64,000 bases of DNA, taken from positions 1 to 64,000 of the forward strand of contig JACSRW010000030.1 in the NCBI GenBank assembly GCA_014879565.1, in the 5' to 3' direction. The notes beneath the pieces are model-generated. The model was given only the letters and a program-made list of their open reading frames with translations, did not search any database and was not told where the DNA came from. A program made the position numbers and the translations under genes. Every line of letters starts with the position of its first letter. The first letter of the stretch is position 1. The stretch comes from Chitinophagaceae bacterium (GTDB lineage Bacteria; Bacteroidota; Bacteroidia; Chitinophagales; Chitinophagaceae). Shown one piece after another: positions 1,893-42,053 of the stretch.

Positions 1893-1924
1893 AGGTTGAG
1901 AGGTTGAGAAGTTGAGGGGTTGAG
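1893..1924. repeat. Four tandem 8-bp GTTGAG words
   Basis: Consecutive units AGGTTGAG, AGGTTGAG, AAGTTGAG and GGGTTGAG follow each other with an exact 8-bp period. The same word family (GTTGAGGG or its complement CTCAACCC) recurs at 23,458, about 25,093, 31,488 and 41,969. Confidence 0.7.
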
Positions 1925-1958
1925 AAGTTCGGGATGTTACGTATATCAATTTTATAAA

Positions 1959-2098
1959 AAGAACCAAGATCCAAGATCCGAAGAACCAATTGTCAGGATT
2001 GCGACTCTCTTGAAAGAAGGTATTGGTTCTTGGTTCTTTGGTTCTTGGTTCTTAGGATCTTGGTTCTTGGAATTTGGTTCTTGGAATTTGGTTCTTCA
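1959..2098. repeat. Inverted word-repeat element (AAGAACCAAGATCC / GGATCTTGGTTCTT)
   Basis: The left arm (1959-1990) contains AAGAACCAAGATCC words. The right arm (2022-2098) contains seven or more TTGGTTCTT words in the opposite orientation, including GGATCTTGGTTCTTGG. About 31 bases separate the arms, so the transcript could fold into a long imperfect hairpin. It lies wholly between the formyltransferase and glycosyltransferase genes. Confidence 0.65.
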
Positions 2099-2104
2099 TT
2101 CCCA

Positions 2105-2875
2105 TCACCCGACTCCTTTCGTAATCCTTGTAATCAGATACTGCCAGATTGTGGGGTGGTACCAGAGCGCGGATTCTTTGGTCAGGCTTTCGCGGGTTTG
2201 CAGCCGGTTGAAATGGAAATCTTCCACTGCTTTGAGCATTAAGGGGATACCTTCCCCAAACTGCAGATAGGGGTAAGTAGAGTAGTTATCACGCGGGGTA
2301 ACCGGGATGAGGCCCTGGCTGAGAATACCCCCCGTATCAATCCCTTTATCCACCAGGTGTATGGTCACCCCGCATAAAGAGGCATCTTTATTCACCATGG
2401 CCCAGTAGCCGCCATGTACCCCGCGGTATTTGGGGGTAATGCCGGTATGCATATTGATAAATACAGCCTTTGTACTTTCCAGCACTTTCCGGGAAATAAT
2501 CCGCGTACCATTCACAATGACCAGATCGGGTTCCAGTTCCTGCAACAGCCGGATACAGGCTTCTTCATTGACCGATTCCACGGCCGTCTTTATTTCTGCA
2601 GGTATGGGCGTTTCATCAAACTGATAAAAAGAAAATATTTCCTTCAGCCGGGACTGCGCCGCCCGTCGTATAAAAGGCACGATCAGCACACTGAAAAGAA
2701 TCTGTCCCCCGACCCGGAACCAGCCCAGCTTTTTCATCCGGCGTTTGGCCAGATTCATACCGCGCATAGGCTGCTCCGTTATGACCCGGTCAATAGCATA
2801 CCGGTTGTTCACCGCGTTATAGATCACCGTGGTGGAAAAACATTCGGAACAGAGCAGTACGATTTTCTTTTTCAT
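2105..2875 (-). CDS. Formyltransferase-fold protein (sugar N-formyltransferase candidate)
   Basis: The 256-residue protein carries the formyl_transf_N catalytic pattern: VIVNGTRIIS, then INMHTGITPKYRGVHGG with the Asn and His, then HLVDKGIDTGGIL with the catalytic Asp. These Asn-His-Asp residues use N10-formyltetrahydrofolate. In a polysaccharide locus the acceptor is most likely an amino-sugar nucleotide, giving a formamido sugar, but a lipid-linked acceptor is possible. It lacks the C-terminal domain of methionyl-tRNA formyltransferase. Its ATG overlaps the stop of the upstream deacetylase gene by 4 bp, so the two are probably translationally coupled. Confidence 0.75.
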   Translation of the reverse strand: MKKKIVLLCSECFSTTVIYNAVNNRYAIDRVITEQPMRGMNLAKRRMKKLGWFRVGGQILFSVLIVPFIRRAAQSRLKEIFSFYQFDETPIPAEIKTAVESVNEEACIRLLQELEPDLVIVNGTRIISRKVLESTKAVFINMHTGITPKYRGVHGGYWAMVNKDASLCGVTIHLVDKGIDTGGILSQGLIPVTPRDNYSTYPYLQFGEGIPLMLKAVEDFHFNRLQTRESLTKESALWYHPTIWQYLITRITKGVG

Positions 2876-3864
2876 ACAGGTGTTTTCAGTTCATCGGCAA
2901 GACCGGACATGGTCACGCTGCTGAACCCGTATTGCTGATGCAGCTCACGGTAGTATTTCAGTATATCTTCCAGGAAACGCATATTCTCTTCCAGGTTCAC
3001 CCCGAAATTATGCGGGTGCCACCAGAGATGAAAGAGCTGTCTGTTTTTGGCTGCATACCGCATGGCCCTTTTGATCCGGCGTAAACGGAGCGGCTCCAGC
3101 CAGCGCAGCTTGCGGTTCCAGGGGCGCAGGAAACGGGAAGCGGCAATATTAAACAGCGGCCCTGTGCCTGCATGTGCCCGGTCATGGGTATGATATCCGC
3201 TGATATTGATATAGGCATCCATTATACGCAGGGCTCTCCGGAAAAGGCTTTCGTCATTTTTGTTCCGGCCGGCGTAAAGCCAGGAAACCGGGTTACCCCG
3301 GTAAGAATCCAGACCGGCCGCCCGGCATACATCCAGGTATTCGCTGTTGAACTGATTGCGGGGAAAGACCAGACTTCTCATTTTTAACCCCCATCCGGCC
3401 GCAATATTTTGCGCTGCTTCCAGATCGGCCCGGAAATCCTCCGGCCCCTGCCCCGGTTCCAGACAATAGTAATGACAGAATGTATGGGTGCCGATCTCCT
3501 GGTTCCCGTTCTCCCGGATCTTTTTCAGTAATGAAAATCCAAAATGACAGGGATCCGATGTTTCGTCCGCACCTATTGCCGGTATAGCCGGATAAGGAGA
3601 AAGTTTTGAGTCGGTATACGCGGGTTGCCTTTCCGGAAGATACCGGATCAGTTCCTCCTTATTCCGGGCAAACAGAAAACCAACAGTGGAAAATGTACCT
3701 TTTACTTCGTACCTGTCGAAGGCTTCCAGCAGGGCGGGTATGACTTTCTGCACACCGAGAATATTTTCCCCGTAGCTTTCAATAGTCCGTTTGTCCCTTA
3801 CCCCCCAGAAGAGTTCAAAATCCAGGGAGATCACAAATTTTCCGGTATCAAATTGCAAAGGCAT
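2872..3864 (-). CDS. Polysaccharide deacetylase family protein (NodB-like)
   Basis: The 330-residue protein has NodB-homology motifs. ISLDFELFWG near residue 12 takes the place of the first Asp motif, GTFSTVGFLFA follows, and IGTHTFCHYYC contains an H-x3-H metal pair. RSLVFPRNQFN provides the Arg/Pro motif, and WWHPHNFG near the C-terminus provides the last His. Such metal-dependent enzymes remove N-acetyl groups from glycans or glycolipids. There is no signal peptide, so the substrate is probably a cytoplasmic glycan precursor. The gene overlaps the formyltransferase by 4 bp, which suggests that deacetylation exposes an amine that is then formylated; this link is inference. Confidence 0.78.
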   Translation of the reverse strand: MPLQFDTGKFVISLDFELFWGVRDKRTIESYGENILGVQKVIPALLEAFDRYEVKGTFSTVGFLFARNKEELIRYLPERQPAYTDSKLSPYPAIPAIGADETSDPCHFGFSLLKKIRENGNQEIGTHTFCHYYCLEPGQGPEDFRADLEAAQNIAAGWGLKMRSLVFPRNQFNSEYLDVCRAAGLDSYRGNPVSWLYAGRNKNDESLFRRALRIMDAYINISGYHTHDRAHAGTGPLFNIAASRFLRPWNRKLRWLEPLRLRRIKRAMRYAAKNRQLFHLWWHPHNFGVNLEENMRFLEDILKYYRELHQQYGFSSVTMSGLADELKTPV

Positions 3865-3872
3865 GTTTTGAC

Positions 3873-5723
3873 TTAGACGGTGTGACGCGTAAAAGGGAGG
3901 TACGCTTTTTTATACCATACATCCAGGGCAAACAGGGTGTAAAGCATTTTGGCCCTTTTTTCATCAGAGATACGGATCCGGCGTTCCAGCAGGTCTCCTA
4001 TAAAAGCCGGAGAAACAAAACGGCTGCTTACCGAATCAGCAGAGAGCAGGTAATCAAAGATCAGTTCCTTCAGTTCTTTATCCACCCATTGGCGCAAGGG
4101 CACTTCAAAACCCCTTTTCGGCTGCCCCACGAGGGTATCAGGCAGGTATTTCTCCGCCAGCCGCCGCAGCAGGTACTTGGTCCGGGTACCGCGTATCTTA
4201 AAATCATCCGGCAGACCCGGCACATACTCCAGTAATTCCTTACTGAGAAACGGACTGCGCCCCTCCAGCGAATGGGCCATGGTGGCGATATCCATTTTGA
4301 CAAGAAGAATATCCGGTAAAATACAGTTGAAGTCCATCTCCATCATCTTCTGTAAACCCGACCGGCCGCTGCGGTTCAGTTGATGCAAAAGCTGACCCAC
4401 CGGATCAGGTTCCGTCAGCGGACGGATTTTATCCTCAAAACCGGTAAAGATATCGGTAGTGGAAGAATAGTAAACGCCTGTTCCCTTTTGGGAAGCCAGG
4501 TCGGCAAGACGGTAGAGATAATTAAGCCGGGTTTGTTTGTCGTGTGAAAGCGGTATAATCCTTTTTGCCCATCCCGCCAGAGAAGTGAGCAGGGCCGGTT
4601 TTCGGAAGAAATCATATTTCGCGAAAGGCACATAACGACGGTAGCCGCCGAAAATTTCATCCGAGCCGTCGCCGTTAAGTATAACGGTAAGGTGTTTTCG
4701 GGCCTCCCGGCTGACATAGTAACTGGGAATGGCGGAATCGTCATAAAAAGGTTCGCCGTAGTTGGACAGGATCTTTTCTATATCGCGGCTGAGTTCATCA
4801 AAGGAAATTTTTATTTCGGTATGACCGGTCTGATATTTATCTGCCACCAGTTTCGCCAGAGGCGCTTCATCATACGAACCGGTGAAGGAAACTGTGAATG
4901 TTTTTAAACCGGGTTTATAGCCGGCCGCGATGGCTGTTACCAGTCCGCTGTCAATCCCTCCGCTGAGAAAGGAACCCACTTCCAGGTCGGAAGAGTCGAG
5001 TCTGCGTTTCACCGCCCGGTGCAGGAGTTGATCCACTTCTTCCAGGGCTTCTTTTTCGCTGACTGCTGTACGGCGGTTATATCCGTCGCCGATCTGCCAC
5101 CAGCGTTCAGTTTGCAGTGGCCCTTCCGGCAGGGAATACCAGGCAAAATGGCCGGGGGGCAGTTCCCGTATCTCACGGTAAGGAGTAGCCGAACCATGAA
5201 AGGCTCCGTAATGCAGAAAATGAGTGATATTTTCCTCACTGATACCCGCCTGCACCTGGGCCTGCAGGGCATTCAGTTCACTGGCAAAGGCAAAACGCCC
5301 GCCCTCTTCATAGTAGTAAAGCGGTTTTTTCCCCGCACGGTCACGGGCCAGGAAGAGCCGGTTTGCGCGGTGGTCATAAATGGCAAAGGCGAACATGCCG
5401 TCAAAATCATGCAGACAGGCCGGTCCCAGTTTGAGAAAGGCCAGCAGGATGGTTTCCGTATCGGAATGGGTTTTACCCTTTAACCCGTGCCTTTCCCTTA
5501 CTTCCTGATGATTATATATCTCGCCATTGAATATAATGGTCAGGTGCTCCAGGTGCATGGGCTGGCTGCCGCTGGCAATATCAAGAATAGCCAGGCGATG
5601 ATGATGCAGGACCAGGTCTTTATCCGACCAGGTGGCCTGGGCATCGGGCCCCCGGTGCCAGAGATCCTTTGTCAGCCGGGGTATATCAAGCGAAAGTCGG
5701 ACAGCGCCGGCAATACCACACAT
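3873..5723 (-). CDS. asnB: Asparagine synthase-type amidotransferase, copy 1
   Basis: The 616-residue protein begins MCGIAGAVRL, placing the Cys2 nucleophile of a class II glutaminase after Met removal. DLWHRGPDAQ and VIFNGEIYNHQEVR-type glutaminase motifs follow. The synthetase half has the PP-loop SFLSGGIDSG and the later NGDGSDEIFGGYRRY. In polysaccharide loci AsnB homologues often amidate uronic-acid carboxylates instead of making asparagine. A second, diverged copy at 12,159 and the uronate-forming enzymes upstream support that role here. Its ATG directly abuts the stop of the Wzy candidate. Confidence 0.88.
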   Translation of the reverse strand: MCGIAGAVRLSLDIPRLTKDLWHRGPDAQATWSDKDLVLHHHRLAILDIASGSQPMHLEHLTIIFNGEIYNHQEVRERHGLKGKTHSDTETILLAFLKLGPACLHDFDGMFAFAIYDHRANRLFLARDRAGKKPLYYYEEGGRFAFASELNALQAQVQAGISEENITHFLHYGAFHGSATPYREIRELPPGHFAWYSLPEGPLQTERWWQIGDGYNRRTAVSEKEALEEVDQLLHRAVKRRLDSSDLEVGSFLSGGIDSGLVTAIAAGYKPGLKTFTVSFTGSYDEAPLAKLVADKYQTGHTEIKISFDELSRDIEKILSNYGEPFYDDSAIPSYYVSREARKHLTVILNGDGSDEIFGGYRRYVPFAKYDFFRKPALLTSLAGWAKRIIPLSHDKQTRLNYLYRLADLASQKGTGVYYSSTTDIFTGFEDKIRPLTEPDPVGQLLHQLNRSGRSGLQKMMEMDFNCILPDILLVKMDIATMAHSLEGRSPFLSKELLEYVPGLPDDFKIRGTRTKYLLRRLAEKYLPDTLVGQPKRGFEVPLRQWVDKELKELIFDYLLSADSVSSRFVSPAFIGDLLERRIRISDEKRAKMLYTLFALDVWYKKAYLPFTRHTV

Positions 5724-7112: not shown

Positions 7113-7117
7113 GCCTC

Positions 7118-8257: not shown

Positions 8258-8275
8258 GTACGGTATTTGTATGGA

Positions 8276-9025: not shown

Positions 9026-9026
9026 G

Positions 9027-11329: not shown

Positions 11330-11353
11330 GCCAGATATTAGTATTTTTTCGTT

Positions 11354-12157: not shown

Positions 12158-12158
12158 A

Positions 12159-14033: not shown

Positions 14034-14038
14034 ATAGC

Positions 14039-18140: not shown

Positions 18141-18212
18141 AGTGATGAATAATGAGTGATGAATAATGAGTGGCCCGGGAAGAGACTTTACAGTTTCGGA
18201 ACAGTCCCGGGC
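18141..18212. repeat. ATGAATAATGAGT words followed by a hairpin
   Basis: Two copies of TGATGAATAATGAGT lie directly upstream of the WbpD-like start. They are followed by the arms GCCCGGGA (18,173-18,180) and TCCCGGGC (18,205-18,212), a perfect 8-bp inverted repeat with a 24-base loop. The sequence just after the words (GGCCCGGRAAGAGRCTTT) is shared with the spacer at 20,305. Confidence 0.55.
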
Positions 18213-18247: not shown

Positions 18248-18886
18248 CTATAACCCATCAAATCGTTTTTCCGGATTCTTAACCATATCCAGCAACCTTT
18301 GCTGTACAATCGGCCAATCCAGGTCTTTTCCTGCATAGTCAATTTCCGGAGAAAAATCAATATCCTCAAAATAGCAAAGTGATTTCAACGCCATAACCGC
18401 ATTGACATCCGGGTATTTTTCCTGATACCTGTTTAGCATTTCATTTAGCGACATACTGGATGATAAAAACCCAATATCCACATAATCTTTCAGCCGGCTG
18501 CCACTGCCTGTAATCGCATTCAGTTTCATAGCTGCGATATCGTCCAGGGAGGCCATCCGGATCCCCTCCTCTTCTATCCAGGGTTTTACCCAAGGGTATC
18601 CATGCCGGATAAAATCAACCTTTATATTTTCAATATGGCCGAAAAGCCCTCCTTTAAACCGGCTTTGCTGACGAAAATTAAATCCGTTCTCCTTTAAAAA
18701 GAGTGGCAGAATATCTTCCGGAAAATCTCCTGCGGTAAACAAATCAATATCCACACTTTTTCTGTGACCAATCTGGAGTGATAAAGCCGTGCCCCCCACC
18801 AGGACAAAGTCCTTTAGTTCAGGAAAAGACTGAAGCCTTTTCAGCACTTCTAATAATAACGGGCTGACGGTTTCTTTGTGTAACAT
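18248..18886 (-). CDS. AbiEii/AbiGii-type nucleotidyltransferase
   Basis: The 212-residue protein has the minimal-nucleotidyltransferase signature VGGTALSLQIGHRKSVDIDL, with the Gly-Gly turn and the Asp-x-Asp metal ligands. A third acidic region, NIKVDFIRHGYPWV, follows, then the helical DDIAAMKLNAITGSGSRLKDY typical of AbiEii. AbiEii proteins act as toxins of type IV-like abortive-infection systems by modifying RNA. The partner at 18,850 overlaps by 37 bp. The pair is inserted between two sugar genes of the polysaccharide operon, on the same strand and bounded by word repeats. It may protect the locus from loss. Confidence 0.82.
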   Translation of the reverse strand: MLHKETVSPLLLEVLKRLQSFPELKDFVLVGGTALSLQIGHRKSVDIDLFTAGDFPEDILPLFLKENGFNFRQQSRFKGGLFGHIENIKVDFIRHGYPWVKPWIEEEGIRMASLDDIAAMKLNAITGSGSRLKDYVDIGFLSSSMSLNEMLNRYQEKYPDVNAVMALKSLCYFEDIDFSPEIDYAGKDLDWPIVQQRLLDMVKNPEKRFDGL

Positions 18887-19140
18887 TTCAGTTCCTTATA
18901 AGGAATATCAAAATAGACATGCACAAAAGCCTGGTCCTTTTCATTCAACCAGCTGATTTTCCGGATTTCGTCCTGTATTTCCTCCTTTTTATAAACCTGC
19001 TGTAAAAGGGCCAGATCTTCCAGTCCGCCCCGCTGAATAACCCTTTCCACAATCAGCCGCCGGTGTTTCAACGGGTCCAGTGTTCCCTGTTTAATATCCC
19101 AGAAAAGATGCGGGGAGAATGATGTGATGCTGGGGGGCAT
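18850..19140 (-). CDS. DUF6922-like small protein, AbiEii partner
   Basis: The 96-residue protein contains SPHLFWDIKQGTLDPLKHRR and IVERVIQRGGLEDLALLQQV. It ends with the IPYKELKCYTKK pattern I associate with DUF6922 proteins, which stand directly upstream of AbiEii-like genes in Bacteroidota. No enzymatic motif is visible. The short basic-helical make-up and the 37-bp overlap with the nucleotidyltransferase suggest an antitoxin or regulator, but this is inference. It is unlike the classical winged-helix AbiEi antitoxin, being much shorter. Confidence 0.7.
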   Translation of the reverse strand: MPPSITSFSPHLFWDIKQGTLDPLKHRRLIVERVIQRGGLEDLALLQQVYKKEEIQDEIRKISWLNEKDQAFVHVYFDIPYKELKCYTKKPSARYY

Positions 19141-19141: not shown

Positions 19142-19257
19142 GGTTAGGGGTTGTAAGTTGTAAGTAGTAAGTTATAAGCTGGCTTCGTGGGAAGAGTGTT
19201 GGAGGACTTTGAGTAGTGAGTGGTCAGTGGTGAGCTGGCCGAAGCAACCCCTCAACC
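19142..19257. repeat. Inverted-repeat spacer with GTAAGT and GAGTGG words
   Basis: The outer arms GGTTAGGGGTTG (19,142-19,153) and CAACCCCTCAACC (19,245-19,257) are near-perfect inverted copies. Inside them lie GCTTCG (19,182-19,187) and CGAAGC (19,240-19,245). TAAGTTGTAAGTAG-type and GTGAGTGGTCAGTGG-type words fill the rest. The right arm reaches the stop codon of the UXS gene. Confidence 0.6.
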
Positions 19258-20226: not shown

Positions 20227-20262
20227 AGTTATGTTTGGTTAATGGTAAGAAGAAGTTGGATA

Positions 20263-20303
20263 GTGGAAAGCGGGTAGTGGAAAGCGGGTAGTGGATAGTG
20301 GGG
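20263..20303. repeat. Tandem 14-bp GTGGAAAGCGGGTA
   Basis: Two exact copies of GTGGAAAGCGGGTA are followed by a decayed third copy (GTGGATAGTGGGG). The rest of the 201-bp gap (20,304-20,427) shows no gene. It starts with GGCCCGGAAAGAGGCTTT, related to the sequence after the words at 18,171. Confidence 0.6.
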
Positions 20304-23449: not shown

Positions 23450-23457
23450 AGATTGAT

Positions 23458-23522
23458 GTTGAGGGGTTGAGATGTTGAGGGGTTGAGGGGTTTGGGGCTT
23501 CGTAAGTTTGCCGGACAAACTT
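23458..23522. repeat. GTTGAGGG tandem words and AAGTTTG/CAAACTT hairpin
   Basis: Four 8-bp units (GTTGAGGG, GTTGAGAT, GTTGAGGG, GTTGAGGG) fill 23,458-23,489. They are followed by a perfect 7-bp hairpin, AAGTTTG-CCGGA-CAAACTT (23,504-23,522). The right side continues as 8-bp-spaced TCAAACCT words, close to an inverted version of the left arm. Confidence 0.6.
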
Positions 23523-24590: not shown

Positions 24591-24639
24591 ACGTTGATTT
24601 TCGGGTTTTTTCCTTTTCCCTGAATAATTCTTAAGGATT

Positions 24640-25129
24640 GTTGAGGGTTTAGGGTTGAGGCTGAGGCTAAGGTTGAGGCTGAGGTTAAGGCTTAGACTAC
24701 TGCCTGAGGCCTTTAATTATTTTATTTAGAGATTCCACAACCTGAAGGCAAAGCTGATCAATTTCCTCAGTCGTTTCTTTTGAAAAATATCCGGCCTTTA
24801 TTCCGGCAAGCAAATGACTTCTGACTTCATACGCGCTGCCTCTTGCGAAATAATAAAAATTTATTTTATCTTTTATATGACCCCTCCCAAAAGCTTCAGC
24901 AATATTTCCGGTTATACTTACCGCTGCTGAACGTAATTGGGAACAAAGGGCATAGTCTTCTCTTTTAGGCAAAATCTCAGTTATCCTGTAGACTGCCTCC
25001 ACCACTTTATCTCCTAGTTGCCAAACCGGCATTTCTGTGAAATCATGATACGCCATACTCATCCTTAGTCTCAGCCTCAACCTTAACCTTAACCCCTCAA
25101 CCCCTCAACCTCTCAACCCCTCAACCTTC
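24640..25129. mobile_element. Cassette-like element: IVP gene framed by inverted word repeats
   Basis: The left arm (24,640-24,695) is built from GAGGCTAAGGTTGAGG-type words. The right arm (25,063-25,129) carries the same words inverted. Within them TAAGGTTGAGGCTGAG (24,668-24,683) and CTCAGCCTCAACCTTA (25,070-25,085) are a perfect 16-bp inverted repeat. The enclosed segment holds only the four-helix-bundle gene. The unit sits between rmlB and an epimerase gene without disrupting either, as an insertion would. Confidence 0.5.
24697..25056 (-). CDS. Four-helix-bundle protein (23S rRNA intervening-sequence/S23 family)
   Basis: The 119-residue protein begins [20 protein letters not shown]. It contains [22 protein letters not shown], the family's diagnostic helix with the Asn-Ile-Ala-Glu core, then [16 protein letters not shown] and the final [19 protein letters not shown]. 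Members are encoded in 23S rRNA intervening sequences and as free genes, and the related Avd protein serves diversity-generating retroelements. No reverse transcriptase is nearby. I chose this ATG because the preceding codons are word repeat. The gene is AT-richer than its neighbours and framed by inverted repeats. Confidence 0.85.
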
Positions 25130-26069
25130 CTCTATACCATTCCATCGTCCTCTTCAGTCCCTCTTCTACGGTTATATCGGGTTCGTAGCCAAGCAGGGTG
25201 CGGGCTTTGGAAATATCGGCGAGACTGTGTTTTACATCGCCGAGCCGCTCAGGGCCAAACACGGGCTGCAGGCGGGTGCCGGCTTCTTTGTTTAACCCGT
25301 TAAAAAGTTCAAGCAGGCTGGTCTGTTCACCACAGGCGATATTATACACCTGGTTCAGGGCTTCTTTATTTTCGGTGAAGAGGGAAAGGATATTCGCCTG
25401 AACCGCGTTGGATACATAGGTAAAATCGCGGCTGTTGGTTCCGTCGCCGTTAATAGTCGGAGGTTGCCCGCGAAGTAATGCTTCGGCAAAAAGCGGAATT
25501 ACGGCCGCGTAGGGGCCGTTGGGATTTTGCCGCGGGCCAAAGATGTTGAAATACCGCAGGCCGATAAATTCCATATCAAACAACTGCGCATATACCCGGG
25601 CGTAAAGTTCATTCACCAGTTTGGTAATCGCATAGGGCGAAAGCGGATTGCCGGTCTGGTCTTCCACTTTGGGCAAACCGGGATGGTCGCCGTATGTGGA
25701 TGAACTGGCGGCATAGACCACCCGTTTGATTCCCGCTTCTTTCGCTGCGGTGAACATATGCAGGGTGCCGGTGATATTGACATTGTTGGTAGTAATGGGG
25801 TCGTTAATCGAACGGGGTACAGAGCCCAGGGCGGCCTGGTGGCTGATCCGGTCTGTTTCTTCACAGGCCCGGCGGCAGGTATCCATATCCCGGATATCAC
25901 CTTCCATAAATGTAAAGCGGGGATCATCCAGAAAAGCCTTCATGTTTTCCAGACTGCCGGTTGCCAGGTTATCCAATACCCTGACCCTGGTCACCCGCGG
26001 GTCCTTCAGCAGGGCTTCCACAATATTGGACCCGATAAAACCGGCGCCGCCGGTCACTAAAATCCGCAT
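25113..26069 (-). CDS. WbpP-like UDP-N-acetylhexosamine(uronate) 4-epimerase
   Basis: The 318-residue extended SDR starts [20 protein letters not shown]. The WbpP/TviC-type stretch HQAALGSVPRSINDPITTNN follows, then VVYAASSSTYGDHPGLP and SPYAITKLVNELYARVY with Y-x3-K, and FNIFGPRQNPNGPYAAVIP. It should interconvert the gluco and galacto forms of UDP-GlcNAc or its uronate. Ten base pairs separate it from the BY-kinase gene. Its last codons overlap the right arm of the IVP cassette. Confidence 0.87.
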   Translation of the reverse strand: MRILVTGGAGFIGSNIVEALLKDPRVTRVRVLDNLATGSLENMKAFLDDPRFTFMEGDIRDMDTCRRACEETDRISHQAALGSVPRSINDPITTNNVNITGTLHMFTAAKEAGIKRVVYAASSSTYGDHPGLPKVEDQTGNPLSPYAITKLVNELYARVYAQLFDMEFIGLRYFNIFGPRQNPNGPYAAVIPLFAEALLRGQPPTINGDGTNSRDFTYVSNAVQANILSLFTENKEALNQVYNIACGEQTSLLELFNGLNKEAGTRLQPVFGPERLGDVKHSLADISKARTLLGYEPDITVEEGLKRTMEWYRGRLRG

Positions 26070-31416: not shown

Positions 31417-31417
31417 G

Positions 31418-31457
31418 GAGAGTGGAAAGTGGGGAGTGGAGAATGGAGAGTGGGGCC
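31418..31457. repeat. AGTGGAA-type words
   Basis: GAGAGTGGAAAGTGG, GGAGTGG and GGAGAGTGG variants follow the acyltransferase stop. They match the word family at 655-727 and precede the CTCAACCC array by 30 bases. Confidence 0.55.
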
Positions 31458-31487
31458 TCCTAAGAATAAGTATGAATGATCAAACCT

Positions 31488-31543
31488 CTCAACCCCTCAA
31501 CCCCTCAACCTCTCAACCTCTCAACTTCTCAACCCCTCAACCC
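31488..31543. repeat. Seven tandem 8-bp CTCAACCC words
   Basis: Units CTCAACCC, CTCAACCC, CTCAACCT, CTCAACCT, CTCAACTT, CTCAACCC and CTCAACCC follow with an exact 8-bp period. This is the complement of the GTTGAGGG family and the longest array in the window. Confidence 0.8.
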
Positions 31544-31593
31544 TTTGTGTAATTAAGCTATTCAGGGCATCTTCTTCCTATAACCATGTAATT

Positions 31594-32013
31594 ATGAAGA
31601 AGTATTTAAGCATTTCCGCCCTGTTTGTGCTCCTGAGTTCCTTTATAGCTGTACCGGCAACAGACCCGGCTGATTCAGTATCGCTGTTTCAGACCCGCTG
31701 GGTATTGCGCAGTATACACGAAAAAGATAAAGTGGATTTTATCTATACCTATGCCTGGCTGGAACTGGATGAGGCCGGGAAAAAAATTTCGGGGAACGGG
31801 AGTTGTAACCGGTTTGGCGGACAGTACCAGTCAGACGGGCAATCGCTTCAATTCGGGGCCTTATTCTCCACCAAAATGTTTTGCCAGGAAATGCAGGAAA
31901 TTGAATCAGCATTCCTGCGCAATCTTTCCCGGGTCAACCGGTATGTAATCAGCGGTCTGAAGCTGCGTTTGTATAAGGATGAGCAGTTGTTGCTGGAGTT
32001 CCGGGCCGTTTAG
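31594..32013 (+). CDS. Secreted META/HslJ-domain protein
   Basis: The 139-residue protein has a signal peptide (MKKYLSISALFVLLSSFIAV). One META/HslJ domain follows, with TRWVLRSIHE, ISGNGSCNRFGGQYQSDGQS, FGALFSTKMFCQEMQEIE and LKLRLYKDEQLLLEF. HslJ-like proteins occur in the envelope and are linked to stress or antibiotic tolerance in enterobacteria, but no biochemical activity is established. It is a single gene with word-repeat elements on both sides (31,418-31,543 and 32,028-32,101). Confidence 0.85.
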   Translation: MKKYLSISALFVLLSSFIAVPATDPADSVSLFQTRWVLRSIHEKDKVDFIYTYAWLELDEAGKKISGNGSCNRFGGQYQSDGQSLQFGALFSTKMFCQEMQEIESAFLRNLSRVNRYVISGLKLRLYKDEQLLLEFRAV

Positions 32014-32027
32014 TAGTCGGCAGATTG

Positions 32028-32101
32028 CAGTTAGAAGTTAGTAGTCATGGGCCGTTCAGGGTCCGGAATCTGAAGGAACCACCGCTACTGACTTCAACCT
32101 G
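32028..32101. repeat. Imperfect inverted word repeat
   Basis: CAGTTAGAAGTTAGTAG (32,028-32,044) and CTACTGACTTCAACCTG (32,085-32,101) are inverted copies with 13 of 17 matches. Forty bases separate them. The design repeats that of the other spacers although the word is different. Confidence 0.5.
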
Positions 32102-32158
32102 GCAACTATTCTCTATTTTACTACCCGTTGTGCATCTTCAACATCCCCGGCTGAAAGA

Positions 32159-32608
32159 TCAGAATAGAAATTTTTCATTGAACTGAATATTGTGCTCAAA
32201 AAGCAATCGCCTGTATTCCGCCTCATAACTCTCTTTATGATGATGGGATTTCTGATTTACTATATAACATCTTACTATCTCCTTCGCCCTTTCAGATACG
32301 GTAAAGGCGGCATACCCATCCTGCCAGCCGGAAAATAACGGGAAAAGGCCCGAACGCTTCATCCACAAACTGCTGGACACTTTTATCTCCTTCACCAGGT
32401 GGCTCAGCGATACCGACGGATGCAGGTCGGTTAAAATATGCAGGTGGTCTGTCATGCCGTTGATGGCATATAACACACCCTTTTGGTTGATGATCACCCG
32501 GCCTATGTAGTTGAATAATTCATGTTCGGCGCGGGGGTTAATGACCGGTGAACGGTGTTTGGGACAAAACACCAGGTGATAACAGATCTGGCGATAGGTG
32601 CTGCTCAT
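32159..32608 (-). CDS. tnpA: IS200-like/REP-associated Y1 transposase
   Basis: The 149-residue protein starts MSSTYRQICYHLVFCPKHRS. It has the HUH motif GMTDHLHILTDLHP and the helix VRCYIVNQKSHHHKESY with the catalytic Tyr, so all active-site residues are intact. Y1 transposases cut and join single-stranded DNA at hairpins, and RAYT members act on REP palindromes. The start chosen is the ATG at 32,608, because codons upstream read through low-complexity DNA. Just upstream lies an array of hairpins (32,717-33,085), which suggests a RAYT role. Confidence 0.85.
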   Translation of the reverse strand: MSSTYRQICYHLVFCPKHRSPVINPRAEHELFNYIGRVIINQKGVLYAINGMTDHLHILTDLHPSVSLSHLVKEIKVSSSLWMKRSGLFPLFSGWQDGYAAFTVSERAKEIVRCYIVNQKSHHHKESYEAEYRRLLFEHNIQFNEKFLF

Positions 32609-32716
32609 AGCATTAGGTTTAAGGGTATGAAGAACAGACCTGGTGTTCGGAAAGCAAGGGGATTTTGCACCGGTTCGGGATGTTTTTTTCCCGTATTCCG
32701 GCGGGAGGGGAACTCC

Positions 32717-32831
32717 GGGCTTCGCCCTGCGTTGACCGGAAGTCAACCCCTCCGGGGTTGTGCGCGGGACGCGGACAGCCGCTAACCCCGGGTTCCACCC
32801 GGGGTTAGCGGAGTGAACCCCTCCGGGGTTC
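32717..32831. repeat. Cluster of REP-like hairpins with TCC/TTC loops
   Basis: Perfect stems are GGGC-TTC-GCCC (32,717-32,727), GTTGAC-CGGAA-GTCAAC (32,731-32,747) and CAACCCC-TCC-GGGGTTG (32,744-32,760). A 15-bp stem starting CCGCTAACCCCGGGT with loop TCC covers 32,779-32,811. GAACCCC-TCC-GGGGTTC covers 32,815-32,831. Three share the core AACCCC/GGGGTT. The second and third overlap and are mutually exclusive folds. Confidence 0.75.
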
Positions 32832-32864
32832 TGCAGCCGCCTACAGACCCGAAAAGCCTCCGGC

Positions 32865-33085
32865 CTTCAGACTGCCCCGACAAGCCGAAGGGCCTGACTT
32901 CTCCTTCCTCCCGGGCACAGTCCGGAGTCTCTTCCCACCTCAGACTGCCGCCAACAAGCCCGGCAGGGCCTGACTTCTCATTCCTCCGGGCAAAGCCCGG
33001 AGAATCTCCCCCCTCAGACTGCCGCCAACAAGCCCGGCAGGGCCTGACTTCTCATCTCCCTGGGCGAAGCCCGGGAATCCCCCCG
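32865..33085. repeat. Three tandem ~73-bp repeats with internal hairpins
   Basis: Units beginning TCAGACTGCC at about 32,865, 32,938 and 33,012 repeat with a 73-74 bp period, and a truncated fourth begins near 33,085. Each contains GGGCCTGACTTCTC and a stem such as CTCCGGGC-AAA-GCCCGGAG (32,984-33,002). The first unit has diverged most. The array lies upstream of the Y1 transposase gene. Confidence 0.75.
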
Positions 33086-33135
33086 CAGACTGCCCGACAT
33101 CAAAATATTTTCCTTAACTTTTTAGCATTTTTATA

Positions 33136-33153: not shown

Positions 33154-33223
33154 CGGAACAAACCCCATTAAATGCTGAAATAAATTTTTCACCGTCCCCT
33201 ACGGGGACATAAACAGACGATGT

Positions 33224-33661
33224 ATGCAGGAAGAGGAATTATTTTTTGGGGCGGCCTACAGGGGCTCTAAACAATTCACCCAGCAGCAGGTACGCACGGC
33301 AAATGCCACCGGTTTCGGAGCGGCAGCGGATGATTATGCCGAAAAAGGCATTGATCTGAACGAGCAACTGATCCGGAACAAACCCGCCACCTTTTTTTTC
33401 CGGATGAAGGGAGATGCCATGAAGGAGGCCGGCATTTTTGACGGAGATATCCTGATTGTGGACCGTTCGCTGAAGCTGGCCAGCGGCAAAGTGATCGTAG
33501 CCATCCTGAACGGCGAGCTGCTCGTACGGCGTTTTCATAAGAATTTCACCTCGGCTTTTCTGATACCGGAGAATAACCGTTATAAAAATATTAACCTGGC
33601 AGAGTTCAGTGATTTTATGGTATGGGGTGTGGTGACGTATGTGATTCACCCTTTGGGATGA
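33224..33661 (+). CDS. umuD: UmuD homologue lacking the catalytic Ser-Lys dyad
   Basis: The 145-residue protein aligns along its length with UmuD (ADDYAEKGIDLNEQLIRN, GIFDGDILIVDRSLKLASG, FMVWGVVTYVIHP). The catalytic Ser of GDSM is Ala65 (MKGDAMKEAG), encoded by GCC at 33,416. The Lys position reads Arg102-Arg103 (LLVRRFHK). The Cys-Gly cleavage site is Thr29-Gly30. It should therefore be unable to self-cleave in the LexA/UmuD manner. It still heads a umuC operon, so it may act uncleaved as a polymerase V accessory subunit or have another processing route. Confidence 0.88.
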   Translation: MQEEELFFGAAYRGSKQFTQQQVRTANATGFGAAADDYAEKGIDLNEQLIRNKPATFFFRMKGDAMKEAGIFDGDILIVDRSLKLASGKVIVAILNGELLVRRFHKNFTSAFLIPENNRYKNINLAEFSDFMVWGVVTYVIHPLG

Positions 33662-33805
33662 ATAACGAATAACGAGTAATGAATAATGAGTATGAAAGGA
33701 AAAGTCAATACTGGATCAGTCATTTCACAAAGCAGGCAGACCAACCGTTTAGTCCTGTTTGATCACCACTCATTACTGATTACTCATTACTCATTACTGA
33801 TTACC
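33661..33805. repeat. Inverted word-repeat element between umuD and umuC
   Basis: The left arm AATAACGAATAACGAGTAAT and on (33,661-33,691) and the right arm ACTCATTACTGATTACTCAT and on (33,768-33,805) are inverted copies with 25 of 31 matches. The spacer is 76 bases. It separates two genes that normally touch, so it looks inserted into the operon. Confidence 0.65.
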
Positions 33806-33809
33806 AATT

Positions 33810-35090
33810 ATGAGAGCTATCGTTGACTGTAACAGTTTTTATTGCTCCTGCGAGCGTTTGTTCCGGCCGGATCTGCGGGAAAAACCCGTGGTGGTGCTGA
33901 GTAATAATGACGGCTGTATTGTATCCCGGACCGATGAAGCAAAAAAACTCGGGGTAGGCATGGCGGCACCCTATTACCAGAACCGGGAACTGATTGAAAA
34001 AAATGAAGTGGCGGTTTTCTCCAGCAATTATCATCTCTACGGCGATCTCAGCATGCGGGTGATGGATACCCTGCGGGAACTGGCGGGAGAAGACCGGGTG
34101 GAAGTGTATTCGGTGGATGAAGCCTTTCTTGATCTCAGTACGATACCGGCTGATACCCTGACCGGCATGGCGACCACCCTAAAAGAAACGGTGGAACAAT
34201 GGACCGGCATTGCCGTATCGGTGGGTGTGGGGCCCAGCAAGGTATTATCAAAAGTGGCTAACCGGCTCTCCAAAAAAGATAAAAAAGGTACCCGGGGTGT
34301 ACTGGTGATTCAAAGTCCGGAACAGATCCGCGAAGCGCTGGAACGCACGGCGGTGGATGATCTCTGGGGGGTGGGGCGGCAGTACGCGATGAAACTGCAC
34401 CATCTCGGTATTGACAATGGCTGGCAGCTCCGTAACATGCCTGAAGAATGGGCCCGCAAACATATGGGAGGGGTGGTGGGCGTACGGCTGATACGCGAAC
34501 TGAACGGCATTCCCTGTATCCCGATGAAAGACCCGCTGGAAACAAAAAAAATGATCGCCACCACCCGGATGTTCGGGAAACCCGTATTTGAACTGGCTGA
34601 GATCAGGGAAGCCATAGCTACCTACACGGCGCGGGCCGCGGAGAAACTGCGTCGTCAGTTCAGTGTGGCCGGGACCATCCAGGTATATGTAGTCACCAAC
34701 GATACGCGCAAGGGCCCCTATGAATACAACCCGCAATCCCGCTGGCAGTATACGCACCTGGCCGAGGCGACGGATGATACGGCCACCCTGATCAGAGCAG
34801 CTCTGCCCCTGGCGGAAAAACTGTACCAGCCGGGGCTGAAATACCTGAAAGGCGGCGTAGTGCTGAGCGGACTGGTACCGGCAGATGCTATCCAGTCGAA
34901 CCTGTTTGTGCAGGAACATGTCCGGCAGGACAACCCGCTCCTGAAAGCTGTAGACAATATCAATTTCAGCTACCGCAGTGATGTGGTGAAATATGTTTCC
35001 TCCGGTCTCACCCGTAACTGGAAAATGCGGCAGGAACTGCGCAGCAAACGTTTTACCACCCGCTGGGATGAACTATATGAAATTCACTGA
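33810..35090 (+). CDS. umuC: DNA polymerase V catalytic subunit UmuC (Y family)
   Basis: The 426-residue protein opens MRAIVDCNSFYCSCERLFRP with the first catalytic Asp. VLSNNDGCIVSRTDEAKKLG and VEVYSVDEAFLDLS with the Asp-Glu pair follow, then GIAVSVGVGPSKVLSKVANR. The little-finger and C-terminal region ends FTTRWDELYEIH, as in UmuC proteins of about 420 residues. It copies past DNA lesions as polymerase V with UmuD and RecA. The gene lies 148 bp after umuD and 2 bp before an unknown gene, so all four genes to 36,333 probably form one operon. Confidence 0.94.
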   Translation: MRAIVDCNSFYCSCERLFRPDLREKPVVVLSNNDGCIVSRTDEAKKLGVGMAAPYYQNRELIEKNEVAVFSSNYHLYGDLSMRVMDTLRELAGEDRVEVYSVDEAFLDLSTIPADTLTGMATTLKETVEQWTGIAVSVGVGPSKVLSKVANRLSKKDKKGTRGVLVIQSPEQIREALERTAVDDLWGVGRQYAMKLHHLGIDNGWQLRNMPEEWARKHMGGVVGVRLIRELNGIPCIPMKDPLETKKMIATTRMFGKPVFELAEIREAIATYTARAAEKLRRQFSVAGTIQVYVVTNDTRKGPYEYNPQSRWQYTHLAEATDDTATLIRAALPLAEKLYQPGLKYLKGGVVLSGLVPADAIQSNLFVQEHVRQDNPLLKAVDNINFSYRSDVVKYVSSGLTRNWKMRQELRSKRFTTRWDELYEIH

Positions 35091-35092
35091 TT

Positions 35093-36333: not shown

Positions 36334-36354
36334 TTTTTCTATTCATGGCTGTTG

Positions 36355-36362
36355 TACCTTTC
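36355..36362 (+). promoter_or_regulatory. Candidate -7 element TACCTTTC for the sulfatase operon
   Basis: TACCTTTC differs from TAnnTTTG in the last base and lies 14 bases ahead of the sulfatase ATG, giving a very short leader. The upstream -33 region has no clear TTTG. Confidence 0.3.
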
Positions 36363-36376
36363 CGAAAATATAGGCC

Positions 36377-37924: not shown

Positions 37925-37926
37925 TC

Positions 37927-39087: not shown

Positions 39088-39890
39088 TATTTTCTCACCA
39101 GGTCTGCGAGAATTTTTCTGTCGGCTTCGGTGAAGGAGCGGGTGGTATCCTGCGGTACAAAATGAATCTTATACGACTGGATCGCATTTTTCTCATTGGA
39201 AAGGGAATAACCGATTATCCGTAATGCCAGCAACGGGTCAAAATTGTCCGGCACCGTAACCGCGGTGGTATCGTACCAGTGACCGAAACCCTGCTGAGCC
39301 AGCCGCTGCCAGGGAAAAAAACGGCTGGGGTCCACCTTCCGACCGGGCGCAACATCCGCGTGACCGATAAAATTTCCGGTGGGTATGGAATAGGCTTTTT
39401 TCAAGCGGTCCAGCAAAGTCAGCAATGCAACCAGCTGTGGTTCGGAAAATGGTTCCGACCCGTTGTTGTCAATTTCAATTCCTATACTGGAAGAGTTGAG
39501 ATCGCTGTTATTCCCCCACTTGCTTACCCCTGCATGGTGAGCCCGGAGCAGATCGTTCAGCATATGATGAACTGTGCCGTCCCGGCAAATCACATAATGA
39601 GAACTGACCGGGTTACGGGTTTGGGTAAAAGTGCGAAGGGTATGATCGCAACTGTTTTGTGCGGTATGATGAATGACAACAAAGTTGGGTTTCCGCAGGG
39701 AGAGATTGGTGGTACCGACCCAGTCAGCATAGTTGAGTCCGGCAGAATCCCTGACGGGATACTCCCGCAATTGTTTTGATAATGCCCTTACCTGTTTTTT
39801 GTAAACCCTGTTCGTATCCGCGTATTTCCCGGTTTTGCAGGAAAAAACGGCAAGGCTTACGATCAGTACCAGGAAAACGAACTTCTTCAT
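39081..39890 (-). CDS. N-acetylmuramoyl-L-alanine amidase lipoprotein (Amidase_2)
   Basis: The 269-residue protein has a lipoprotein signal ending SLAVFSCKTGKYAD. An Amidase_2/PGRP fold follows, with NFVVIHHTAQNSCDHTLRTF (first zinc His pair), SSHYVICRDGTVHHML and LRAHHAGVSKWGN. SSIGIEIDNNG and GHADVAPGRKVDPSRFFPW supply the remaining zinc ligands. It cleaves the MurNAc-L-Ala bond in the periplasm. It converges on namZ, and the two coding ends overlap by 7 bp. Both are murein-degrading, which suggests a shared recycling role. Confidence 0.9.
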   Translation of the reverse strand: MKKFVFLVLIVSLAVFSCKTGKYADTNRVYKKQVRALSKQLREYPVRDSAGLNYADWVGTTNLSLRKPNFVVIHHTAQNSCDHTLRTFTQTRNPVSSHYVICRDGTVHHMLNDLLRAHHAGVSKWGNNSDLNSSSIGIEIDNNGSEPFSEPQLVALLTLLDRLKKAYSIPTGNFIGHADVAPGRKVDPSRFFPWQRLAQQGFGHWYDTTAVTVPDNFDPLLALRIIGYSLSNEKNAIQSYKIHFVPQDTTRSFTEADRKILADLVRKYQ

Positions 39891-39961
39891 GTGTTTGTAT
39901 TTAACAGGAAGTCATAAAGAACTTTAAACTCCTATCTCCTTACTCCTCTCTCCCGACTCCT

Positions 39962-41203
39962 TTACCGGCTGCCGCCCGGTCTTTTCCCATAAAACTTCTT
40001 TTTCGGTTTGCCGCCCCGGTTGTCCCGGTTGCCGCCATGATGATGACGGGTACGCGGATTATAAGCAGGCGCAGGTCCGAGTTCATCAGGGATTTCACCT
40101 TTTTCCACTGTTTTTTCAAGCAGTTGTTCGATCTGGTGAAATTTGTTCTGTTCTTTATCCCCTACCAGTGTATAGGCTGCTCCTTCGGCTTCAGCGCGGG
40201 CGGTACGACCAATACGGTGTACATAATCTTCCCCGTCGCCCGGCACATCATAATTGATCACGAGGTCAATGGTATCAATATCAATGCCGCGGCTGAGAAT
40301 ATCGGTGGCCACCAGCAGAGGGATACGACCGCTGGCAAAAGCGCCCAGTACAGATTCGCGCTGGGCCTGTTCCAGATCACTGTGAATTTCTTCAATATTA
40401 AAGCCCGCCCTTTTCAGTTCCCTGCGTACTTCTTTTACCGTTTGTTTCCGGCTGCAGAATACCAGCGCGTTTTTATAAGGTGTTTCCCGCAGGAGTTTTT
40501 GCAAAAGGGGCATTTTCTGCGGCTCATGCACCACAAAGGCTTTCTGCACAATTTTTTCGGGCGGTTTGGAAATCGCAATATTTACTTCCACGGGGTTATG
40601 GAGCAGGTTGCGCGCCAGTTGCCGGATTTTGGCAGGCATAGTCGCCGAGAAAAGAAGATTTTGTCTTTTTTCCGGGAGCGCTTTTATGATACGGTTGATA
40701 TCATCCTGGAAACCCATATCCAGCATCCGGTCTGCCTCATCCAGAATCAGGAAGCGGAGTTGTTTCATATTCACATAGCCCATATTCAGATGGGCGATCA
40801 TCCGGCCGGGTGTACAAACAATGATATCAGCTCCCATCTGCAGCGCTTTCTTCTCCGCCACAAAGTTCTGCGCATCGCTGCCCCCATAAATAGCGATCGA
40901 ACTGAGATGGGTGAAATAAGAAAGTCCTTCAATATGCTGTGCAATCTGGATGGCCAGTTCACGGGTGGGAACAATGATCAGGGCACCCACCTGCCCATCC
41001 ACATGATGGCTTAACAGATGGTTCATCACGGGCAGAAGAAAAGCAGCGGTTTTACCCGTTCCGGTTTGCGCGGAAGCAATAATATCCCGGCCTTCCATGA
41101 TCGGTGGAATGACCTGTTCCTGGATAGGGGTGGCGGTTTCGTAATTGGAAGCTTCGATGCCTTCCAGCAGGAGCGGACTAAAGTTAAACTCGGTAAAGCG
41201 CAA
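39962..41203 (-). CDS. rhlE: DEAD-box RNA helicase (RhlE-like)
   Basis: The 413-residue protein has the Q motif TATPIQEQVIPPIMEGRD, motif I SAQTGTGKTAAFLLP, motif II LDEADRMLDM, motif III LFSATMPAK and motif VI HRIGRTARAEAEG. A basic Gly/Arg/Lys-rich tail (HHHGGNRDNRGGKPKKKFYG) is typical of RhlE. It remodels structured RNA in ribosome assembly or cold response. The start appears to be TTG, because the conserved MRFTEFNFSP N-terminus falls there and no ATG precedes it. Confidence 0.92.
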   Translation of the reverse strand: MRFTEFNFSPLLLEGIEASNYETATPIQEQVIPPIMEGRDIIASAQTGTGKTAAFLLPVMNHLLSHHVDGQVGALIIVPTRELAIQIAQHIEGLSYFTHLSSIAIYGGSDAQNFVAEKKALQMGADIIVCTPGRMIAHLNMGYVNMKQLRFLILDEADRMLDMGFQDDINRIIKALPEKRQNLLFSATMPAKIRQLARNLLHNPVEVNIAISKPPEKIVQKAFVVHEPQKMPLLQKLLRETPYKNALVFCSRKQTVKEVRRELKRAGFNIEEIHSDLEQAQRESVLGAFASGRIPLLVATDILSRGIDIDTIDLVINYDVPGDGEDYVHRIGRTARAEAEGAAYTLVGDKEQNKFHQIEQLLEKTVEKGEIPDELGPAPAYNPRTRHHHGGNRDNRGGKPKKKFYGKRPGGSR

Positions 41204-41225
41204 AATATTCAGTTTTAGAAAGATG

Positions 41226-41233
41226 CGAAGTTA
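41226..41233 (-). promoter_or_regulatory. Candidate -7 element TAACTTCG for rhlE
   Basis: Minus-strand TAACTTCG is one base off TAnnTTTG and continues with CA, as many Bacteroidota promoters do. It predicts a leader of only about 15 bases. A hairpin (AAGCCC, 41,243-41,248, with GGGCTT, 41,261-41,266, then a T run on the plus strand) lies just upstream. Confidence 0.3.
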
Positions 41234-41369
41234 ACGAAAATGAAGCCCCGCCGGCTTTCCGGGCTTTTTTTAATTAAAATCAGCCCTGCCGCTGCCCCCG
41301 GTCATAGGCACACAGGGCTAACCGGCTGTAGCTTAGAACAAACTGATTCACAATTAAAATCTTTGCAAT

Positions 41370-41960
41370 ATGAAATACAGTCTTTTGATCGCCGCCCTTG
41401 TCTTTACACTATCCGCACAGGGACAGGCCTGGGCAAAACAATATGACCATGTGGATGAATGTGTTTGTGGATTATCACTGGTGGGCAAAGGAGATAAACA
41501 TGGGTTTGTGGACAAGGAAGGAAAACTCGTTATTCCGCTGATATACGATGATGCGCTAACATTTTCTGAAGGGTATGCCGCTGTAAAAAAAGACGGGAAA
41601 TGGGGTTTTATTGACAGCACCGGCAAAATTCTCGTGGAACACCGTTATACGGAAGCCATGTCGTTTCACTATGGACTCGCAGTAGTCAGCACTGGTAATG
41701 AATACGGCTTTATTGACACCAGCGGCAAGGTTGCCATTCCCCTGGCTTATGAAAATGCTTCCCAGTTCTCGGAAGGAGTGGCGGCTGTTAACAAAAACGG
41801 GAAATGGGGTTATATAGATAAAAAAGGAAAAGAAATCATTCCCTTTAAATACAGTTTTGCCGGCACATTTGACGGAGGCGCAGCCCGGGTGATGCTGGCC
41901 GGTAAATGGATCATTATTGACGCGAGCGGCAAGAAGATTGCGGACGGGGACGGGGAGTGA
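41370..41960 (+). CDS. Secreted WG-repeat protein
   Basis: The 196-residue protein has a signal peptide (MKYSLLIAALVFTLSAQGQA). About four to five WG (KWG) repeats follow, seen as KHGFVDKEGKLVIPLIYDDA, KWGFIDSTGKILVEHRY, EYGFIDTSGKVAIPLAYENA, KWGYIDKKGKEIIPFKYSFA and a final KWIIIDASGKK. WG repeats form beta-structured binding domains of unknown ligand. It is smaller than most members. It is divergent from rhlE and followed by GTTGAGGG words. Confidence 0.88.
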   Translation: MKYSLLIAALVFTLSAQGQAWAKQYDHVDECVCGLSLVGKGDKHGFVDKEGKLVIPLIYDDALTFSEGYAAVKKDGKWGFIDSTGKILVEHRYTEAMSFHYGLAVVSTGNEYGFIDTSGKVAIPLAYENASQFSEGVAAVNKNGKWGYIDKKGKEIIPFKYSFAGTFDGGAARVMLAGKWIIIDASGKKIADGDGE

Positions 41961-41968
41961 TAAATATA

Positions 41969-42053
41969 GTTGAGGGGTTGAGAGGTTGAGGGGTTGAGGG
42001 GTTGAGGGGATCCGAACCGGTTGTTCGGCTTCTCTACACCTAAACTCCTCAAC
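41969..42053. repeat. Five tandem GTTGAGGG words, hairpin and inverted CCTCAAC
   Basis: Five 8-bp units fill 41,969-42,008, all GTTGAGGG except one GTTGAGAG. A hairpin CCGAAC-CGGTT-GTTCGG (42,012-42,028) follows, then the inverted word CCTCAAC ending at 42,053, next to the icmF stop. The layout is left words, stem, inverted words. Confidence 0.7.

Follow-up and report, generated by a model that had tools for sequence, protein, structure and literature searches.

IVP/S23 genes between opposed arrays of short words in a Chitinophagaceae genome and other bacteria

We describe intergenic elements in a 64,000-nt stretch of DNA from a Chitinophagaceae bacterium (hereafter the window, the first 64,000 nt of contig JACSRW010000030.1 within a draft genome of 3.43 Mb). 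Short words are repeated there in degenerate tandem arrays, and the longest palindrome, built of two opposed arrays, encloses a gene of the IVP/S23 family. The full unit, found across genomes and phyla, consists of one IVP/S23 gene and, on either side of it, arrays in opposed orientation that are built from a word mostly of seven letters. The word usually differs per element but is the same in both arms, where its variants tend to follow the same order, and it is usually G-rich on the inward strand. The unit usually lies in sense with the genes on both sides. It is often found in spacers, for example argC-argD, whose counterparts in relatives are very short. The association of IVP genes with opposed word arrays is firm. 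Two old puzzles meet here, namely the role of the common S23/IVP "four helix bundle" gene and the origin of bacterial intergenic heptamer arrays. As the most economical account we propose a class of elements outside rRNA that resemble the intervening sequences (IVSs) of 23S rRNA and have mostly private heptamers as arms, along with numerous gene-less derivatives; its mechanism is a proposal.

Results

An IVP gene inside the longest palindrome

Between the two arms of the longest palindrome (24,649-25,126) lies a gene that a profile search assigned to PF05635 (E=4.9e-29), the IVP/S23 four-helix-bundle family encoded by 23S rRNA IVSs. An AlphaFold model of its product (mean predicted local distance difference test score, pLDDT, 96.6) matches Xcc0516 of Xanthomonas (TM score ~0.9) and BT_0352. 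Weaker matches (TM 0.74-0.79, E 0.013-0.1) were to chains of the retroelement ribonucleoprotein structures 8ub7, 8ub8 and 8ube; we take these chains to be Avd, the structure titles naming the ribonucleoprotein alone. When positions 24630-25131 were folded as RNA, the arms formed a long stem with the open reading frame (ORF) in the loop (z-score -6.5). An earlier note, made from the letters of the window, had described the arrays and their inversion, and had missed both this gene and the fact that its family occupies such a setting in other genomes and other phyla.

The genome encodes six IVPs, five of them between opposed arrays with a word of their own per pair (TAAGTTG, GGGAGTC, GTTGAGG, GTACGAA and AAGAACC). 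All five arm pairs scored above all 100 shuffles. The IVP protein is under purifying selection, with a median ratio of nonsynonymous to synonymous substitution rates (dN/dS) of 0.12 in the 127 of 216 related IVP pairs that have dS<2, mostly from argC-argD. At argC-argD both neighbours share the IVP strand in 73 of 74 loci, and elsewhere in 53 of 70. Considering that the units are in sense with both neighbours, IVP is probably translated from the host message. The family is common: a sample of 296 Bacteroidota genomes gave an IVP match in 232, of which 220 were above the family cut-off.

Opposed arms accompany IVP genes across phyla

To score opposed arms, the 250 bp upstream of a gene were aligned locally to the reverse-complemented 250 bp downstream, and the best match was tested against 200 dinucleotide shuffles (p<0.01). 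Within the window's own family, 27 of 30 IVP loci had such arms (5 truncated loci dropped). A further set, mostly from multi-copy genomes, gave 30 of 38. The same was true of 69 of 78 named IVP loci (2 of 80 dropped for short flanks; 7 repeat earlier loci), and those passing include Acidobacteriota, Chloroflexota and one Gammaproteobacterium. Bacteroidota outside the family gave 16 of 30, and plasmids 7 of 12, ten of these 12 plasmid loci being cyanobacterial (12 of 45 matching records used).

The controls were PF13366 (GxxExxY), PF00313 (cold-shock), PF01797 (Y1_Tnp) and random small ORFs. Opposed arms were found at none of 25 cold-shock genes (5 dropped), at one of 150 random ORFs of 100-160 aa from the window's own genome, and at six of 28 Y1_Tnp loci (2 dropped), where they were short hairpins and not word arrays. 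GxxExxY loci had them in 18 of 27 cases (3 dropped).

Two groups of loci drew attention on inspection. The GxxExxY genes (PDDEXK_3; L066-L095) have recurrent arm words of their own, CACAGAG, ACACAGAT and TTAGGATT, with a weak period near 9. Three armed IVP genes on cyanobacterial plasmids (L426, L428 and L431) lie in cas operons of clustered regularly interspaced short palindromic repeats (CRISPR), twice as cas6-IVP-cas4 and once as Cmr2-IVP-Cmr3. IVP genes in cas loci were reported earlier (PMC3936711).

The word is mostly private and matched between the arms

We examined 110 arm pairs scoring at least 30, a set that includes repeats and many argC-argD relatives. The best period was 7 in 97 pairs and 8 in 11, and on the inward strand G exceeded C in 98 pairs and C exceeded G in nine. 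In 29 of 35 loci the own arm pair outscored every cross pair of the same genome. It outscored all 34 other loci, across genomes, in 26 of 35, the word being less private between genomes. Agreement between the arms in the order of variants exceeded the mean of unit-shuffled arms in 90 of 102 loci, including 42 of 42 away from argC-argD. Moreover, similarity of the IVP protein tracks similarity of the word (58 loci, leaving out pairs whose flanks are similar in nucleotide sequence; Mantel rho 0.27, reached by none of 1000 permutations). Where a word has exactly two variable columns these are adjacent in 16 of 24 loci (8 expected). A fixed grammar of five conserved and two variable letters is not general, since 68 of 95 loci have at least three variable columns.

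Across 141 loci, arm mismatches of the G.U type in sense RNA numbered 113 and those of the A.C type 128. This lack of a G.U excess suggests that pairing of the sense RNA is not what keeps the arms matched, and it favours matching at the DNA level. Selection for RNA pairing is thus unsupported as the reason for matched arms, and the role in ending or stabilising transcripts that the earlier note had raised is likewise unsupported as an explanation of the match.

Orthologous sites are empty, filled or differently worded

The argC-argD spacer could be measured in 27 of 30 fetched loci of the family. Fourteen spacers are 10-78 bp long. Another 12, of 407-813 bp, contain IVP sequence, in most cases with word arms that can be seen, and the last, at 277 bp, has a palindrome but no IVP frame. 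In the window's own genus, where 39 genomes were searched and ten inspected at argC-argD, four have an IVP (in G074 with weak arms), five have neither IVP nor palindrome, and G086, judged by eye, has a palindrome of another word without the gene. The site of the window's IVP is likewise short in relatives, at 29 bp in G063 and in one copy in G071 (the genome of locus L256) and 48 bp in G086. A further G071 copy is occupied by an IVP that differs from the window's (36% identity) and lies between GTTTAGTC arms. The gap at 41,961-42,053 has GTTGAGGG arms in the window and TAATGAG arms in G071 and G086. Presence and absence between intact flanks, which the earlier note had proposed to look for, therefore both occur, as does change of word. 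By eye, the TAATGAG arms of these two orthologues (L343, L345) flank a terminator-like hairpin.

Both argC and argD occur in the flanks of 69 of 154 IVP loci, partly because the search was seeded with such IVPs. A quick IVP tree (145 rows, 117 columns) had 13 changes of site label, at least five of them forced by starred branches, and does not settle whether the argC-argD IVPs represent one arrival or several.

Word arrays of the window

Tandem Repeats Finder located word arrays with units of 6-21 nt in 14 intergenic gaps, counting both sides of the gene at 24.7-25.1 kb separately. The intergenic word arrays are therefore real, as is the earlier observation of degenerate tandem words in at least ten gaps; its word length of 6-14 bp is replaced by true units of 7 or 8 nt (TAATGAG, TTGGTTC, GTTGAGGG). 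Two other rows of the program stand apart: 31,661-31,700 falls inside a gene, and 32,867-33,094 is a 74-bp repeat of a different kind.

An inverted-repeat search of the window returned arms at 1959-2096, 24,649-25,094 and 33,663-33,811. The gap at 41,961-42,053 contains an inverted pair (p=0.02), and 32,014-32,110 folds into a hairpin (RNA z -4.3). Inverted words had been claimed at six places. The claim holds at 1959-2098, 24,640-25,129, 33,661-33,805, 41,969-42,053 and, as a hairpin, 32,028-32,101, but at 19,142-19,257 the inversion is weak (self-inverted score 18, p=0.25; RNA z -1.9) and the two ends carry different words.

A survey of gaps of ~50-1500 bp, delimited with a simple ORF caller, recorded a tandem array where our array score reached at least 14. 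This was the case in eight of 23 window gaps and in 22 of 159 gaps of a 400-kb genome sample, which is biased because part of its stretches were picked for matches in a GTTGAGGG search. No gap reached the score in any of its 20 shuffles. Of 546 control pieces from outside the gaps one did, and it covers the array at 23,458-23,492, past a doubtful TTG start. Genome-wide, GTTGAGGGGTTGAGG (<=2 mismatches) occurs 203 times, against 16 for its reversed control.

The period was 8 in 15 and 7 in 14 of the 30 arrays of this genome. An inverted pair, not necessarily the word array itself, was present at p<0.05 in 13 of the 30 array-bearing gaps, so that palindromes are no more frequent than arrays lacking an inverted partner. 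The earlier view of one design in many words, not explained by simple copying of a single family, is right, with one correction: GTTGAGGG and TAATGAG recur at many places, so the words are not all private and copying does happen within the genome.

Many gene-less arrays match arms of resident IVPs

We compared 29 gene-less arrays from the window and the sample with the arms of IVP genes, counting as a match any score above all 20 shuffles of the array. The arms of the six resident IVPs were matched by 21 arrays, 20 of which matched them better than the arms of five other genomes, and all six IVPs were represented.

The TAATGAG family has 57 genome matches to the window element at 33662-33811. 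Its owner may have been lost or may be of another kind. No core common to the TAATGAG copies of this genome was seen, the listed matches other than the query covering one arm each. The core of the G071 orthologue of this element looks similar by eye.

Comparison with known systems

S23p-type IVSs of 23S rRNA occur in Coxiella and are also named for Leptospira, Brucella and Xanthomonas, at sites in helix 9, 25 or 45; in Coxiella, a varying number of tandem GACAGAT heptamers directly precedes the S23p start, and the S23p ORF is called reductively evolving (PMC4990558). The elements described here share with them the PF05635 family and a sense-orientation ORF inside an inverted-repeat stem. They differ in the protein-gene neighbours of the window and argC-argD elements (rRNA genes were not searched), in that both arms are word arrays, in a word that usually changes per locus and in the abundance of gene-less derivatives. 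In contrast to the Coxiella ORF, IVP here is under purifying selection.

Heptamer arrays of GGGAATC in Xanthomonas and GGGGA(T/C)T in Nostoc, described as one word type per genome, include 70 converging inverted pairs in X. campestris and 75 in X. axonopodis; their authors generally found no link to mobile elements (PMC4692102), and the examined parts of that paper contain no link to IVP. They resemble our arrays as G-rich intergenic heptamers in inverted pairs, and X. campestris encodes an IVP (Xcc0516, 2gsc). The Xanthomonas relative of our IVP is a pentamer of four-helix bundles. TAACTGA heptamer repeats are known from Beggiatoaceae, Cyanobacteria and Bacteroidetes; those of Maribeggiatoa mostly precede start codons (PMC4679880). 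They too are intergenic heptamer arrays, sometimes accompanied by other heptamers and with shorter, repeat-free spacers in relatives; unlike our units, they are direct arrays of one word, and the examined parts of the paper describe no spacer gene (PMC4679880). Direct intergenic arrays of 7-nt units, as in heptamer repeats of the short tandemly repeated repetitive type, are present in our material as well.

Orthologous empty sites are found as for miniature inverted-repeat transposable elements or insertion sequences, but there are no fixed, family-specific terminal inverted repeats, and the arms differ between IVP copies of one genome (29 of 35 loci, above). Systems of repetitive extragenic palindromes (REPs) and RAYTs likewise couple a chromosomal protein to dispersed palindromes of its own. 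There the protein is a Y1_Tnp transposase, whereas IVP is a four-helix bundle, and because Y1_Tnp flanks are short hairpins we rejected RAYT/REP as the source of the arrays. The fold also resembles the presumed Avd of diversity-generating retroelements, but no reverse transcriptase partner is required: PF00078 was found in 16 of 60 family genomes, and 45 of these 60 have an IVP. A reverse transcriptase was likewise rejected as the word maker, PF00078 being absent from the IVP-rich genomes G027 (14 IVPs), G029 and G040. The single PF00078 match of the window's own genome lies at G000:C3:75402-75977.

Among the papers that our literature searches listed, with subscription literature mostly outside them, we found none that joins IVP/S23 genes outside rRNA with word arrays.

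Discussion

We favour, at a probability of about 0.58, the reading that these are IVS-like elements residing in protein operons, outside 23S rRNA, in which IVP recognises its own word and from which arrays spread without the gene. The protein would bind its word as DNA. Strand slippage would lengthen the arms and copying from arm to arm would keep them matched, so that the word could drift and yet stay the same in both. Gene-less arrays and palindromes would be non-autonomous derivatives, spread with the word of a resident IVP. For Xanthomonas, the reading predicts that Xcc0516 lies between GGGAATC arms. Recognition of the word, and any role of IVP in movement, are what we infer. If each IVP does recognise its own word, many unexplained intergenic repeats may gain an owner. 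The earlier note's idea of a mechanism that makes or spreads word palindromes is in this respect partly supported.

Several results weigh against this reading. The sixth resident IVP (L032) has a clear GTGGGGA array upstream alone and no significant downstream arm, its arm-pair score of 25 falling below the maximum of 26 in 100 shuffles. The shared variant order passes 5% singly in 21 of 102 loci alone. The arm signal is strongest in the window's own family and weaker outside it (16 of 30), and the arms of GxxExxY genes show that the two-arm design is not exclusive to IVP. Many genera share the argC-argD and rfb IVP sites, which fits long residence as well as mobility. The units inspected contain no recombinase or transposase, and no insertion was caught in the act. 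Among the gene-less arrays, GTTGAGGG accounts for 14 of the 21 that match, and part of the sample had been picked for the presence of this word; outside GTTGAGGG, seven of 15 match. With the arms of other genomes, 5 to 18 of the 29 arrays pass the same threshold, and the match to the resident IVP L036 is marginal (28 against a shuffled maximum of 26). Finally, no IVP with the TAATGAG word is among the six residents.

Alternatively, the arms could form an RNA device, pairing in the operon transcript so that RNase III cuts the stem and thereby frees the IVP message or tunes the flanking messages, with selection keeping the RNA pairing. The strong fold of the window element with its ORF in the loop, the folds of four gene-less palindromes (z -5.9, -4.3, -3.2 and -3.2) and the sense orientation of the units are consistent with this, as is the cutting of the Coxiella IVS by RNase III in vitro (PMC4990558). 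We nevertheless think it unlikely: between the arms, mismatches of the G.U type do not outnumber those of the A.C type; of two window gaps with opposed arrays, one folds little better than its shuffles (z -1.9) and the other no better (z +0.9); and 17 of 30 array gaps lack an inverted pair at p<0.05.

Passive DNA dynamics, that is, replication slippage and arm-to-arm template switching in any unselected gap with the IVP gene as an incidental passenger, would explain private words, matched arms with shared variant order, the absent G.U bias and the commonness of gene-less arrays. It leaves unexplained why arms occur far more often at IVP than at cold-shock genes or random small ORFs, the covariation of IVP and word, period 7 across phyla and the dN/dS of 0.12, and we regard it as quite improbable. 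Least probable of these alternatives is that the palindromes came first, by another route, and served as landing sites for IVP and GxxExxY genes. The same spacer can indeed hold a gene-less palindrome of another word (G086, by eye; L170), GxxExxY genes also lie between opposed arms, and TAATGAG palindromes exist without a resident IVP. However, random landing would not be expected to correlate IVP with word, and the other words and period near 9 of the GxxExxY arms suggest that the two gene families do not share one kind of landing site.

The favoured IVS-like reading has a bolder form, in which IVPs would be a new kind of genome writer that itself possesses no nuclease, transposase or polymerase. 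Each lineage would recognise a private seven-letter word and drive host replication or repair to lengthen, mirror and seed arrays at gene edges. We hold this to be speculative and rather unlikely; if true, it would unite bacterial heptamer arrays, rRNA IVSs and IVP genes as one class of element.

Other features of the window

Table 1. Word arrays, palindromes and the IVP gene of the window, with the evidence for each.
Feature	Position	Strand	Evidence
Left word arm of IVP element, GTTGAGG/GCTGAGG/TTAAGG units; downstream arm on the IVP strand	24649..24695	+	Inverted-repeat search, Tandem Repeats Finder, arm alignment 52 vs shuffled max 24 (L034)
IVP/S23 four-helix-bundle gene in palindrome spacer	24697..25062	-	PF05635 profile, AlphaFold model, match to Xcc0516 (values in text)
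Right word arm, CCTCAACC units; upstream arm on the IVP strand	25058..25126	+	Tandem Repeats Finder, inverted-repeat search, arm alignment; RNA fold
IVP-less palindrome, AAGAACC/TTGGTTC word, that of IVP L036 elsewhere in the genome (match by eye)	1959..2097	.	Tandem Repeats Finder, inverted-repeat search; RNA z -5.9
GTTGAGGG array, word of window IVP L034	1893..1929	.	Tandem Repeats Finder, match to resident arms
GTGGAGA/GTGGGGA array, word shared with the upstream array of IVP L032	655..721	.	Tandem Repeats Finder; arm match score 47
TAATGAG-type array	18141..18172	.	Tandem Repeats Finder
TAAGTTG array, word of IVP L031	19150..19178	.	Tandem Repeats Finder; arm match score 43, against 45 for an arm of another genome
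TAGTGGA/AAGCGGG heptamer array	20257..20301	.	Tandem Repeats Finder
GTTGAGGG array	23455..23492	.	Tandem Repeats Finder, word search
Opposed arrays of two different words: left GTGGGGA-type, right GTTGAGGG	31417..31543	.	Tandem Repeats Finder, arm match; RNA z +0.9, no better than shuffles
Short TTAGAAG/TTAGTAG palindrome	32014..32110	.	RNA z -4.3
TAATGAG palindrome between S24 peptidase and Y-family polymerase genes; same word at the G071 orthologous spacer	33662..33811	.	Inverted-repeat search; RNA z -3.2
Short pyrimidine-rich heptamer array	39928..39961	.	Tandem Repeats Finder
GTTGAGGG palindrome; TAATGAG palindrome instead at the G071 and G086 orthologous spacer	41969..42053	.	Tandem Repeats Finder, arm match; RNA z -3.2
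TCCCGTCT array, below the match threshold for all resident IVP words	59928..59958	.	Tandem Repeats Finder, arm match

Rfam at gathering thresholds gave no match within the window. Next to the Y1_Tnp (RAYT-like) gene at 32159-32746 are short CCGGGCTTCGCCC inverted repeats and a 74-bp unit repeated about three times in tandem (region 32159-33094). Gene and repeats look like a REP-RAYT system that is a separate neighbour of the word arrays. At 18248-19140, a toxin-antitoxin-like pair of an AbiEii nucleotidyltransferase gene and a DUF6922 gene lies between two arrays with different words.

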